This document shows positions 3,765 to 14,420 of a stretch of 21,162 nucleotides of DNA, piece by piece. Both the position numbers and the translations under genes were made by a program. The notes under the pieces were generated by a model that saw only the letters and a program-made list of their open reading frames with translations, did no database searches and was not told where the DNA came from. Position 1 is the first letter of the stretch; every line of letters starts with the position of its first letter. Source of the stretch: a virus; the IMG/VR virus record IMGVR_UViG_3300050014_000658, positions 1 to 21,162 of that record, one strand, 5' to 3'.

Positions 3765-4328
3765 CTATTTTGTGTCCATTCGGACAATGCTGCCGATATA
3801 CACGCCCAGCGTATCCAAGGGCAACTTGTCCCCCTTTTGCACAAGGCGCTTGATGAGCCCCTTGTATGTTGAGTGATGAACGTCATACTCGACAACGGGT
3901 TCGACGTTGAACTCCGCAAGCGCTTCCAGGACCTTGTGCTCCGTGATCTCGTCGCCCTTGGGCAATTCCACGGTCAGCATCCGCTTGACGACGCCGCCGT
4001 GTTTGTTGTCCACAAGCCAGTTGATTGCAGTCGTTCGCGCTCCGGCCTCCTTAGGCAACGTAGCCTCCACAAGGGGCTCGCGCGTCAGGATGTGGTTGTC
4101 AACGCCAAGGACCTGGACCTTATGCTCAAACATTAAATCCGGCATTTTGCGGCGGCGCAGCTCCTCGCGCAGCGTGGTGAAACGCACGACGTCAGCTTTG
4201 GCTTGCTCAAGGTCCAATTCGACCTTTACAAGCCGCGCCCCCATCTCTCGCACTTGGTCAAGGGCGTCCTGGTCTTGCGGCGCGTCCTGGGAGGCTTTAA
4301 GCAAGATGTCGGCGGAGTCAAAGTCCAT
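3765..4328 (-). CDS. Conserved phage protein of unknown function, N-terminal coiled coil
   Basis: The protein has 187 aa from the ATG at 4328. An in-frame ATG 6 nt upstream (4334) is only 2 nt from the AGGAG, too close, while 4328 is 8 nt away. The first part is charged and helical (a probable coiled coil through about residue 62, ending TTLREELRRRKMP). A globular part follows with an INWLVDNKHGGVVKRMLTVELPKGD strand-helix segment and HHSTYKGLIKRLVQKGDKLPLDTLGVYIG. I recall similar proteins in other phage replication clusters, always unnamed, so no function is assigned. It overlaps the upstream 70-aa gene by 11 nt, which implies translational coupling. Confidence 0.75.
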   Translation of the reverse strand: MDFDSADILLKASQDAPQDQDALDQVREMGARLVKVELDLEQAKADVVRFTTLREELRRRKMPDLMFEHKVQVLGVDNHILTREPLVEATLPKEAGARTTAINWLVDNKHGGVVKRMLTVELPKGDEITEHKVLEALAEFNVEPVVEYDVHHSTYKGLIKRLVQKGDKLPLDTLGVYIGSIVRMDTK

Positions 4329-4530
4329 GGTCATTTCTCCTGTTTAGTGCTACGGAGGAAACAAGCCTCGCGGGAATCCGGACTGTCTGAGCGTCCCCGT
4401 TCGCTCTCATCGAGTCAATGAGGATGTCTCCTTCGCTGTCCTCATCCGTAAAGCCGAAGATACGGGAGGAATAATCAAAGACCTTGTCTCCGACCCGTTT
4501 AACGATAAGAAAATCCGCTTCGCTCTGCAT
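4318..4530 (-). CDS. Small acidic protein, unknown function
   Basis: This 70-aa protein starts MQSEADFLIVKRVGDK and ends VALNRRNDHGL. The ATG at 4530 follows GGAGG by 7 nt, one of the best ribosome sites in this operon. A longer open reading frame extends upstream but has no better start, and it would read through hairpin repeat A and a membrane-protein gene in another frame, so the short version is preferred. Residues 25-41 are strongly acidic (FGFTDEDSEGDILIDS). No domain is recognised. Its stop overlaps the start of the next gene. Confidence 0.62.
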   Translation of the reverse strand: MQSEADFLIVKRVGDKVFDYSSRIFGFTDEDSEGDILIDSMRANGDAQTVRIPARLVSSVALNRRNDHGL

Positions 4531-4531
4531 G

Positions 4532-4654
4532 TCACTTCCTCCCCTCAAGAAATTGGATTGGGTCCGTCGCCAAGGAGTTGCTCCACCAGCCCACCCCGGC
4601 ATTTGACATGGGCGGCGTCCACAAAGCTTTGTGCTGCTCTCGTGTACGACGCAT
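4532..4654 (-). CDS. Very small basic ORF, tentative
   Basis: A 40-aa frame (MRRTREQHKALWTPPMSNAG...) ends with its TGA one base before the ATG of the 70-aa gene, and it fills an otherwise empty 160-bp gap on the minus strand. The ribosome site is weak (GGAAAAAG about 6 nt upstream). The tight junction and the gap-filling position are the only support. It could equally be untranslated leader. Confidence 0.35.
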   Translation of the reverse strand: MRRTREQHKALWTPPMSNAGVGWWSNSLATDPIQFLEGRK

Positions 4655-4691
4655 ACGAGGCTTTTTCCGGGGCCTGAGTTTCTTAGTCCTG

Positions 4692-4847
4692 TCACATCCC
4701 ATAAGCTATCGCCACCATCAAAGCGGGCAGAATTCCCAGGAAGACGACCCACCGCGTGAATGCGGGCCACAGTATCGCGAGCAAAATCAGCGCTAGTTCC
4801 ACGCTGACGATTACAGGGATCATTTGATTTTCCATTTCCATTTCCAT
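4692..4847 (-). CDS. Small two-helix membrane protein
   Basis: The product has 51 aa from the ATG at 4847, or 47 aa from 4835; the beginning is a MEMEMENQM repeat, so the start is ambiguous. After it come two hydrophobic segments, IPVIVSVELALILLAILW and VVFLGILPALMVAIAYG, separated by a PAFTR turn with one Arg. This is the profile of a two-pass inner-membrane microprotein. It lies in the leftward early operon, far from any lysis-type cassette, so early takeover, superinfection exclusion or membrane anchoring is as likely as a holin role. It has no recognisable family. The frame is too short for usual gene-length cut-offs and is easily missed. Confidence 0.6.
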   Translation of the reverse strand: MEMEMENQMIPVIVSVELALILLAILWPAFTRWVVFLGILPALMVAIAYGM

Positions 4848-4870
4848 TTCCGACCGATCCTTGAATGAAT

Positions 4871-4922
4871 GCCGCCCCGGCGAGCCGCGAATGGGTTACG
4901 CTCCGTCTCAGGCCGGGGCGGC
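4871..4922 (-). repeat. Hairpin element copy A (52 nt)
   Basis: An 11-bp perfect stem (GCCGCCCCGGC and GCCGGGGCGGC) encloses a 30-nt loop with ATGGGTTACG at its centre. It has the same length, stem and loop core as copies B, C and D at 5544-5777. The left flank (CGATCCTTGAATGA) is also shared. This copy sits alone inside the leftward operon, between a 61-aa gene and the small membrane protein. There is no U-tract, so it is not an ordinary terminator. Confidence 0.9.
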
Positions 4923-4933
4923 CTGGAAGACGA

Positions 4934-5119
4934 TTACTCGCCGTCCAATTCCGTATTAAGCGACTTCCATTTCGCATACAGATCGCGGAGGAAACGCTTC
5001 TCGACGTATCGCTTTGCGGACGCGGCGACATGGGCGGAGTAAGATTCCTTACCTTCGGCCTCTTTGCGGACCCGGGCCGACTGGCCAGGCGTCAAACTCG
5101 AATCGTCTGGCCGTCGCAT
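4934..5119 (-). CDS. Small basic protein, unknown function
   Basis: This 61-aa protein is rich in Lys and Arg (AKRYVEKRFLRDLYAKWKSLN) with a predicted amphipathic helical C-terminal half. The ATG at 5119 is only 3 nt after the stop of the XRE gene, and AGGTGA overlaps that stop, so translation is probably coupled. A partner, adaptor or antirepressor role beside the repressor is conceivable, but nothing in the sequence identifies it. Confidence 0.58.
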   Translation of the reverse strand: MRRPDDSSLTPGQSARVRKEAEGKESYSAHVAASAKRYVEKRFLRDLYAKWKSLNTELDGE

Positions 5120-5122
5120 TGA

Positions 5123-5503
5123 TCACCTGCGTTTGGAGCGAATGTAATTGAGGAACTCGAGCAGTTCATTTTCTTCGCTCGCGGTCAGGTTATCGATAGA
5201 GAAGGTCGCCGCTCGGCCGTGCTTTATTCCTTCTGAACGATTGGCGGCGGGCACGATGTACCCTGCACGTTCCATCAGCGATTCATAAGCAACACCGAGG
5301 GCTGTCGATAGTGCATAGAGAATGTGCGGCGATGGTTTTGTGATTTTGCCAGTCTCAAGTTGGCTAAGATACGAATTAGACACTTCCTTTCCTGTCGCTT
5401 CTTCTACATCACGAAGTGACATGTGAACGTCTTGCCGGGCCTTTTTTATAAACTGGCCAAGGTTGATTGTCTGTGGAGTTTCCATTGCTTTGTCATCTGG
5501 CAT
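5123..5503 (-). CDS. XRE/Cro-CI family helix-turn-helix regulator
   Basis: In this 126-aa protein, residues 14-70 form a classical XRE domain: LGQFIKKARQDVHMSLRDVEEATG, then SNSYLSQLETGKITKPSPHILYALSTALGV, where SNSYLSQLE is the recognition-helix region. The C-terminal part (YESLMERAGYIVPAANR..., ending LLEFLNYIRSKRR) is short and lacks a CI-type LexA/peptidase domain. The start at 5503 has GGGAG 5 nt upstream. It is the first gene of the leftward operon, about 300 bp downstream of a promoter. This fits an autoregulated early repressor acting on the divergent promoters at 5805-5870. Such proteins bind palindromic operators as dimers; which operator it uses is not known. Confidence 0.9.
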   Translation of the reverse strand: MPDDKAMETPQTINLGQFIKKARQDVHMSLRDVEEATGKEVSNSYLSQLETGKITKPSPHILYALSTALGVAYESLMERAGYIVPAANRSEGIKHGRAATFSIDNLTASEENELLEFLNYIRSKRR

Positions 5504-5543
5504 CGATACTCCCTTCCTTCGTCACAGGCCTCTTTGCATGAGT

Positions 5544-5777
5544 GCCGCCCCGGCGGTTCGCGAATGGGTTACGTTCCGTCTCGGGCCGGGGCGGCGCGGG
5601 CAGCGGTCTCCCGCCATCCGATCCTTGAATGAGTGCCGCCCCGGCGCTGTGTCCATGGGTTACGTTCTTCGATTGGCCGGGGCGGCGCGGGCAGCGGTCT
5701 CCCGCCGTCCGATCCTTGAATGAGTGCCGCCCCGGCGCATCGTCCATGGGTTACGTCCTTTTGCTGGCCGGGGCGGC
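5544..5777 (-). repeat. Tandem array of three 52-nt hairpins, 91-bp period (copies B, C, D)
   Basis: Three hairpins at 5544-5595, 5635-5686 and 5726-5777 have identical 11-bp stems (GCCGCCCCGGC/GCCGGGGCGGC), loops of exactly 30 nt, and an invariant ATGGGTTACG in the loop. Loop flanks vary: copy B resembles copy A, and C resembles D. Starts are 91 bp apart. The 39-nt spacers are nearly identical and hold a smaller hairpin (GCGGG...CCCGC, first at 5596-5614) followed by CCGATCCTTGAATGAGT. The array occupies most of the untranslated leader between the leftward promoter and the XRE gene, so each unit would be transcribed. Open frames across it are by-products of the repeat. Confidence 0.92.
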
Positions 5778-5804
5778 ATGCGCTGTTTTTTGCAGCGTTC
5801 GTAA

Positions 5805-5833
5805 CTTATAAAATTAAATTTAGCGCTTTGCAA
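5805..5833 (-). promoter_or_regulatory. Leftward early promoter
   Basis: On the minus strand TTGCAA (5833-5828) is followed after 17 nt by TATAAG (5810-5805), a good sigma-70 arrangement, with transcription expected to begin near 5798. This drives the hairpin leader and the XRE operon. CGTAAC directly abuts the -10 box (5799-5804), matching the GTTACG core of the hairpin loops on the other strand. The CGCTT-TGC-AAGCG inverted repeat at 5824-5836 overlaps the -35 and could be an operator. Confidence 0.6.
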
Positions 5834-5842
5834 GCGTTATTT

Positions 5843-5870
5843 TTGCATTGTAATTTCGCTAAAATATGCT
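5843..5870 (+). promoter_or_regulatory. Rightward early promoter
   Basis: TTGCAT (5843-5848), 16 nt, TATGCT (5865-5870) precede the RHH gene by about 40 bp. An alternative uses TTGCAA at 5828-5833, a palindromic hexamer that also serves the leftward promoter, with TAATTT 17 nt downstream. The two transcription units therefore start back to back within about 70 bp. Confidence 0.5.
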
Positions 5871-12150: not shown

Positions 12151-12449
12151 TGTTACACTGTTACGGCACTTGTTACGGAGTTAGATAGTCACTGTAACAG
12201 TGGTAACTCACTGATCCAAAAATGAAAAATCCAATTTGTTACAGTGTTACGGGGCTCGCGCGCGTGTATACGCGCGAGGCGGCGTGTTTTGTGTGTTTTG
12301 TGAGGAGCAGTTTTGTGTTTCTTGTGCGTAGTTAAAATCGTATTTCCTCTGTAACACTGTAACAAAAATAATAAGTAATTGAAAATAAACGAGAAAAAGT
12401 TGTTACGGAGAAGTTACAGAGGCACGAAATGCTGTAACATGCCGTAACA
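12151..12449. repeat. TGTTAC repeat cluster, candidate replication origin
   Basis: Exact TGTTAC or its complement GTAACA begins at 12151, 12159, 12171, 12194, 12237, 12245, 12351, 12359, 12401, 12434 and 12444. That is 11 copies in 299 bp, where well under one is expected by chance. Three pairs are spaced exactly 8 bp apart (12151/12159, 12237/12245, 12351/12359), giving TGTTACAGTGTTAC-type doublets; CACTGTAACAGTG at 12190-12202 is a near-palindrome. An A-rich tract (about 12361-12399) and a GC hairpin with a long alternating purine-pyrimidine run (12255-12278) lie between clusters. Iterons plus an easily melted tract beside a primase-helicase gene suggest an origin; a dense regulator site is the alternative. 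Confidence 0.75.
12255..12278. other. GC hairpin / alternating purine-pyrimidine tract
   Basis: CTCGCG and CGCGAG arms surround an inner GCGCGT-GTAT-ACGCGC hairpin. Positions 12257-12276 alternate strictly pyrimidine-purine for 20 nt, a pattern prone to cruciform or Z-DNA formation. It sits between TGTTAC pairs in the candidate origin. Confidence 0.55.
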
Positions 12450-12682: not shown

Positions 12683-13183
12683 ATGAGCTGGGCCATCGCT
12701 TTCACATATGCCAATCAGGAATACTCCTTCGAGAGATGGATGGCGCGGCGCGGCGTGCGCGTTTATATACCGCGCAGCCGAGCAATGGTGCGGCCACGCC
12801 GGATGCGGAGGATGGTTGAGACAACGCGACCCGCGTTTGGGAACTATGCGTTCGTAGGGATACGTGGAGATTCGGTGGAGATTGCGAGGGAGTCTCCTAA
12901 TCTGAATCACATGATACGGCGGGAAGGCGTTTTAATTGTTGTTTCGGATAGGGAGATTGAGGACATACAGCGGCGAGAGAAGGCTGGTGAATTTGATTTA
13001 TTGCCGGAGGATATGTCTTTGAAGTTCTGCAAAGGAGTTGAGGTGCATATTGTTGCTGGGCCGTTTGAGGGGCGGACCGGGATCGTAACGCGGGCAGCGA
13101 CGCCCAAGGGGCATCTTGTGCAAATCGACGTCGGGGGGCATCTTGTAGCTTTGCCTCTTGTGCTTTTGCAAAAATGCGCGTAA
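12683..13183 (+). CDS. NusG/RfaH-like transcription elongation factor (phage antiterminator)
   Basis: The protein has 166 aa from the ATG at 12683, with GAGG 7 nt upstream. The N-terminal domain follows the NGN pattern: WAIAFTYANQEYSFERWMARRGVRVYIP (3-30), then RPAFGNYAFVGI (49-60), where NusG has the two strands that contact RNA polymerase. A KOW motif follows at 117-135 (KGVEVHIVAGPFEGRTGIV) and ends with a strand LVALPLVLLQK. Length and domain order match NusG and RfaH. Such proteins bind the polymerase clamp and suppress pausing or termination. It is the first gene of the late region, before two terminator-like hairpins after the terminase small subunit, so antitermination or late-gene activation is a natural inference. 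Confidence 0.88.
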   Translation: MSWAIAFTYANQEYSFERWMARRGVRVYIPRSRAMVRPRRMRRMVETTRPAFGNYAFVGIRGDSVEIARESPNLNHMIRREGVLIVVSDREIEDIQRREKAGEFDLLPEDMSLKFCKGVEVHIVAGPFEGRTGIVTRAATPKGHLVQIDVGGHLVALPLVLLQKCA

Positions 13184-14345: not shown

Positions 14346-14420
14346 GCCAATGTAGCTTAGCGGTAGAGCGGCTCATTTGTAATGAGCGGGGCGAGGGTTC
14401 GAATCCTTCCTTTGGCTCCA
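14346..14420 (+). tRNA. tRNA-Thr (anticodon TGT)
   Basis: A complete 75-nt cloverleaf is present. The acceptor stem is GCCAATG with CTTTGGC, with one T-T mismatch at its sixth pair. The D-arm is GCTTAGCGGTAGAGC. The anticodon stem GCTCA/TGAGC carries the loop TTTGTAA (anticodon TGT, reading ACA). The T-arm is GAGGG-TTCGAAT-CCTTC, and the 3' CCA is encoded. It is the only tRNA in the window. The acceptor mismatch is unusual but occurs in phage tRNAs. Confidence 0.93.

Follow-up and report, generated by a model that had tools for sequence, protein, structure and literature searches.

A four-copy hairpin element in the leftward leader and operon of a phage genome

The leftward operon and its repeated hairpins

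We analyzed a window of 21,162 nt, which is the full length of viral record IMGVR_UViG_3300050014_000658; copies in any further part of the genome would not be visible in it. On the minus strand, the leftward order is xre, a 61-aa open reading frame (ORF), one hairpin copy (copy D), a 51-aa ORF, and further ORFs. The further leftward genes include a nucleotidyltransferase-like gene (phrog_4400), a Pam3_Gp34-like gene, queC, and a beta-clamp gene. Upstream of xre lies a candidate promoter flanked by two palindromic operator-like sites. The features, all on the minus strand, are as follows.

5820..5838, minus: operator-like palindrome AACGCTTGCAAAGCGCTAA; by eye it resembles sites upstream of three xre relatives (L159, L164, and L165)
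5805..5833, minus: candidate leftward promoter, TTGCAA-17-TATAAG, read from the sequence
5780..5799, minus: operator-like palindrome AACGCTGCAAAAAACAGCGC, read from the sequence; in the fold of the leader, the predicted transcript has its first small hairpin here
5726..5777, minus: hairpin copy A, tail to 5708
5687..5725, minus: spacer A-B, with the tail and a small hairpin, GCGG-GAGA-CCGC (z, -2.2)
5635..5686, minus: hairpin copy B, tail to 5617
5596..5634, minus: spacer B-C, with the tail and the same small hairpin, GCGG-GAGA-CCGC (z, -1.2)
5544..5595, minus: hairpin copy C, tail decayed; adjoins the xre ribosome-binding site
5123..5503, minus: xre, HTH_3 regulator (PF01381, 46 bits), first gene after the leader
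4871..4922, minus: hairpin copy D, between genes, tail to 4853
4692..4847, minus: 51-aa ORF, apparently membrane spanning from its sequence, no family match

The promoter candidate was missed by a consensus scan whose rule demands that the second hexamer end in T. The three tandem copies sit between the promoter/operator region and the start of xre (5503), and copy D sits between the ORFs at 4934-5119 and 4692-4847. All four copies have the same sense as the leftward genes and lie downstream of the promoter candidate. This agrees with the original prediction, which had placed the copies in the leader of the leftward operon and once between its genes.

Four 52-nt inverted repeats had been described at 4871, 5544, 5635, and 5726, and we found all of them there. 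The 11-bp perfect stem (arms GCCGCCCCGGC / GCCGGGGCGGC) was identical and the loop 30 nt long in four of four copies, and the copy at 5726 extends to 12 pairs, spanning 5725-5778. We confirmed the invariant loop core as ATGGGTTACG (minus strand, CGTAACCCAT), 10 nt present in every copy. The spacing of the three tandem copies is exactly 91 bp, as had been noted, and the fourth copy (4871) lies 673 bp from the array. There is indeed no U-tract 3' of any copy on the minus strand, and the second small hairpin reported for each spacer folds in both, marginally above shuffles.

We also found a 3' tail, A-Y-TCATTCAAGGATCGG on the minus strand, that was absent from the original prediction. The tail is kept after the copies at 5726, 5635, and 4871 and has decayed after the copy at 5544, adjoining xre. 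Because the tail is conserved 3' of the hairpin, the repeat unit is about 70 nt rather than 52 nt.

Each stem arm, GCCG-CCC-CGGC, is an interrupted palindrome in itself, and eight of the nine GCCGNNNCGGC sites in the window are hairpin arms. The window holds seven perfect stems that have 11 bp or more and enclose a loop of 10 to 40 nt; this count takes in pairings between arms of neighboring copies, and the mean in 60 Markov shuffles was 0.32 (largest, 3). The four-copy element is real and nonrandom and is so far found in one virus.

Among the other leftward genes, the queC product scored 162 bits (922-1695), which suggests deazaguanine modification of DNA or tRNA by the phage. The beta-clamp gene encodes a DNA polymerase III beta-clamp homologue (2-784) and is cut by the window end. 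The 61-aa ORF (4934-5119) aligns with the C-terminal portion of phrog_4285, a PHROG annotated as transposase (E, 2.7e-6), although no transposase is present.

Variation among the copies and predicted folding

When the four copies were compared, 16 columns were variable, all of them in the loop, and none of the 22 stem columns varied (P, 1.4e-5 for a random placement of variable columns). The tandem neighbors A and B, with a 91-nt unit, differ at nine positions, eight of which fall within the loop (P, 4.7e-4). Up to 15 of the 30 loop positions differ between copies, and no stem position does. Since stem and core are kept beyond what the loop divergence leads one to expect, we consider it likely from these alignments that the stem, the core and, less strictly, the tail are under constraint. 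The isolated copy D also retains stem, core, and tail, which indicates that the unit is kept and not the tandem array alone.

The original prediction had taken this conservation as a sign of selected RNA or DNA structure. Both P values favor constraint, but the stems are identical, and structure as the constrained thing is not singled out. Compensatory stem changes had been proposed as a check; the 11 stem pairs never vary in the four copies, leaving covariation unscorable. Because the stem is invariant, the RNA and DNA readings are inseparable by covariation. A possible helix extension at loop positions 14-16/39-41 was rejected, as it pairs fully in copies A and D only.

The arms are palindromic and supply eight of the nine GCCGNNNCGGC sites, so inverted DNA-binding sites would leave an identical trace. 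Such an array would present the interrupted palindromes in inverted pairs around the core to a phage repressor, partition protein, or replication protein, and it would explain why identical sequence, and not merely pairing, is kept. However, all sites have the same sense and are found either downstream of the promoter or in the gap between two genes, and the symmetry includes neither the invariant core nor the 3' tail. We consider an array of this kind unlikely.

Single units were predicted to fold at -25 to -32 kcal/mol (z, -2.7 to -4.1). For the 297-nt leader, the predicted optimum pairs arms between copies at -138.7 kcal/mol versus -135.5 kcal/mol for pairing within copies, a near tie. Identical arms mean that tandem copies can exchange partners. 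In these predictions, three discrete hairpins are not the sole fold of the leader. In leader prefixes of 75 to 125 nt, which mimic transcription, the first copy folds locally, and for the isolated copy D, only local folding is possible.

Some features of the leader would fit a posttranscriptional element, that is, a 5' stabilizer, a processing site, or a translational operator. The predicted transcript has stable hairpins from about 20 nt after its start onward. The tail of copy D gives AAGGA (4858-4862), 10 nt upstream of the ATG of the 51-aa ORF. The loops of copies A and B read as SD-like purines, CGUAACCC, and AUG, with AAGGA-CGTAACCC-ATG in loop A. In contrast, copies C and D carry ATT where A and B carry ATG, and copy C, nearest to xre, has lost the tail. 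The copies also fall in different frames (91 nt), and no leader ORF of either strand gave a convincing family match; on these same grounds, coding repeats were rejected for both strands. Taken together, we regard posttranscriptional control as rather unlikely. Type III toxin-antitoxin repeats, in which tandem repeats precede a gene, were dropped as well, the gene here being an HTH regulator.

Searches for further copies and related loci

We built a covariance model of the 70-nt unit and searched 150 loci in total. The four window copies scored 88 to 95 bits. Nothing scored above 23.5 bits in 91 other loci, including nucleotidyltransferase relatives, and the best match in 58 further loci (terminase relatives and stem-pattern matches) scored 34.5 bits, at a locus that had been picked by its stem arms. 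Hairpins in unrelated genomes reach 35 bits, and we therefore treated both matches as noise. The 34.5-bit look-alike shares only a few tail bases with the unit and was judged a chance match (L156). The 23.5-bit match (E, 0.044) is one GC-rich hairpin whose loop contains AACCCAT. It precedes a putative regulator in L024, which is related through one protein, a nucleotidyltransferase (61%); this match too was judged noise, as hairpins in unrelated genomes give 24 to 35 bits. A scan of collected loci for repeated hairpins found no similar array.

Exact patterns recovered no further true copy in all viral contigs and about 85,000 genomes, and none in a set of 289 genomes. The core-plus-stem pattern gave six chance matches in viral contigs, which are not hairpins, and two in genome contigs. 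Stem arms alone gave 15 GC-rich hairpins, none of which carries the core, and core plus tail with any stem gave no match. An occurrence of ATGGGTTAC at one locus (L103) sits in an AT-rich, apparently coding stretch and was set aside. In host-type genomes, no copy was found by exact pattern or by the model (14 genomes). The Rfam 15 covariance models placed no family over the element, and their only matches were a tRNA and one subthreshold match elsewhere in the window.

According to the original prediction, a lack of copies in related phages would argue for simple duplication. We found none in the searched collections. The phage proteins have at most about 62% identity to their matches, which are scattered over different contigs. 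Because no close phage relative is in the collections, the absence of the element elsewhere is weak evidence.

The xre gene has relatives on a Bradyrhizobium plasmid (L159) and in two genomes of a class Alphaproteobacteria sample (L164 and L165; 58 to 59% identity). Compared by eye, their upstream sequences are similar and contain TTTAGCGC, CTTGC, and TTAGCAAA. The leaders of all three are short and lack such hairpins. As the operator region is common to the xre relatives and the array is absent from them, the array looks to have been added between a conserved control region and xre. Searches of viral records with one protein at a time, xre or the ORF at 3765-4334, found no relatives.

These results bear on a nonfunctional origin by local duplication. 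Here a GC-rich inverted repeat would have given rise to tandem copies and a single distant one, all of them either recent or homogenized by recombination. The restriction to one virus, the exact 91-bp tandem of three copies with near-identical spacers, and xre relatives that manage without the array are all consistent with this. Neutral copies, however, should not spare stem and core while their loops diverge, and we think it improbable that duplication alone accounts for the element.

Possible action on the early leftward transcript

Our preferred reading, held tentatively and as somewhat less than probable, is that the four copies act in cis on the early leftward RNA, as a lineage-specific element of about 70 nt to which a sequence-specific factor binds. 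We infer the action as RNA rather than DNA, the binding factor, and any effect on elongation. The unit would consist of the stem, a loop presenting CGUAACCCAU, and the tail ACUCAUUCAAGGAUCGG, which would stay single stranded. Its occurrences on the early leftward transcript, all in one sense, would number three in the leader and one between genes. Each copy would fold during transcription, and a sequence-specific factor of phage or host would then bind. Binding would alter the fate of the transcript; among the options, we rank first a reduction of pausing or termination along the operon. The Xre promoter/operator would already have been functional when the array was inserted between it and xre, and local duplication would have multiplied the array, with stem, core, and tail retained.

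The pattern of stem and loop variation, the shared sense, the retention of copy D, and the absence of the array from xre relatives argue for this cis-acting element. The phage also encodes a NusG-like protein, and LoaP offers a precedent for action through a leader hairpin (PMC12691694). Against the cis-acting element stand the lack of covariation, the lack of a second genome with the element, and the lack of a terminator-like site to overcome, none being found on the minus strand at 4000-5800. In addition, the NusG-like gene is in the rightward operon beside terminase genes, and tandem copies may pair between copies.

The original prediction had likened the element to nut or put sites and suggested antitermination. 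Its position supports the comparison; the absence of boxA, the difference from putRNA, and the absence of terminator-like sites in that same interval do not. In phage lambda, boxB is a small hairpin adjoining boxA. Like lambda nut, the element described here occupies early-leader and between-gene positions and has a hairpin with a conserved loop. Unlike nut, it has a 30-nt loop, and its leader has no boxA-like sequence (no match within one mismatch at 4800-5850).

The put RNA of HK022 is about 70 nt long and forms two stem-loops and a triplex with contacts to the beta' zinc-binding domain of RNA polymerase (PMC9378689). Both putL and putR, like the copies here, are stem-loops that open an early phage transcript, putL lying just 3' of PL. 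In contrast, each unit here has one 11-bp stem with a 30-nt loop and is repeated, in the leftward operon only within this window. The 70-nt unit does not match the put-type double stem-loop when its architecture is compared with the published one (PMC9378689), a comparison made without alignment to put sequences.

LoaP, a NusG paralogue, acts via a leader hairpin, the dfn element, in which an intrinsic terminator follows a small UNCG hairpin (PMC12691694). The likeness lies in the NusG-like protein of the same genome and in a hairpin placed early in a long operon. The hairpins here differ in having a 30-nt loop without a UNCG tetraloop and no terminator-like site on their strand at 4000-5800. 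Matches to the RfaH ops element were at chance level. REP-like palindromic repeats of bacterial genomes are likewise GC-rich inverted repeats with several between-gene copies; unlike them, the present element lies in one operon of one virus, in a single orientation, with an invariant loop core and no genomic copies found. With moderate confidence, we place it among phage early-leader cis elements.

The NusG-like gene lies at 12683-13183 in the rightward operon (PF02357, 28.7 bits versus a cutoff of 22.2; phrog_6386, antiterminator). Its protein had no tblastn match in phage records. Among 26 related records, of which many are fragments, a NusG-family profile matched none; this, like the place of the gene in the other operon, speaks against antitermination. 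By analogy, a partnership of this protein with the hairpins is possible, as a candidate link. An antitermination role for the element is possible from its position, from its sense orientation, and from this gene elsewhere in the phage. We consider it very unlikely that the copies represent a new class of phage leader RNA, an identical-stem hairpin array with an invariant core and variable loop flanks that would be read by the NusG-like protein or RNA polymerase, sustain early transcription, and switch between within-copy and between-copy pairing.

If the copies are a true RNA control site, they would constitute an early-transcript element unlike nut, put, and the LoaP hairpin, and the four variants, sharing stem and core and differing in loop flanks, would provide a natural test. 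If they are mere duplications, they warn against taking repeated perfect hairpins that show no covariation as proof of RNA function.

Other features lie in the rightward part of the window. The NusG-like gene directly precedes the terminase genes. Before it, in a noncoding stretch of about 690 bp, is a cluster of TGTTACNG octamers, with ten within 400 bp at 12159-12449 and 14 in the window versus 1.6 expected. This cluster is a candidate iteron-type origin or late control region. An analogous cluster of CATTACAG palindromes lies upstream of terL at another locus (L107, 4993-5120). A tRNA-Thr gene (anticodon TGT) is located at 14346-14420, just before terL.
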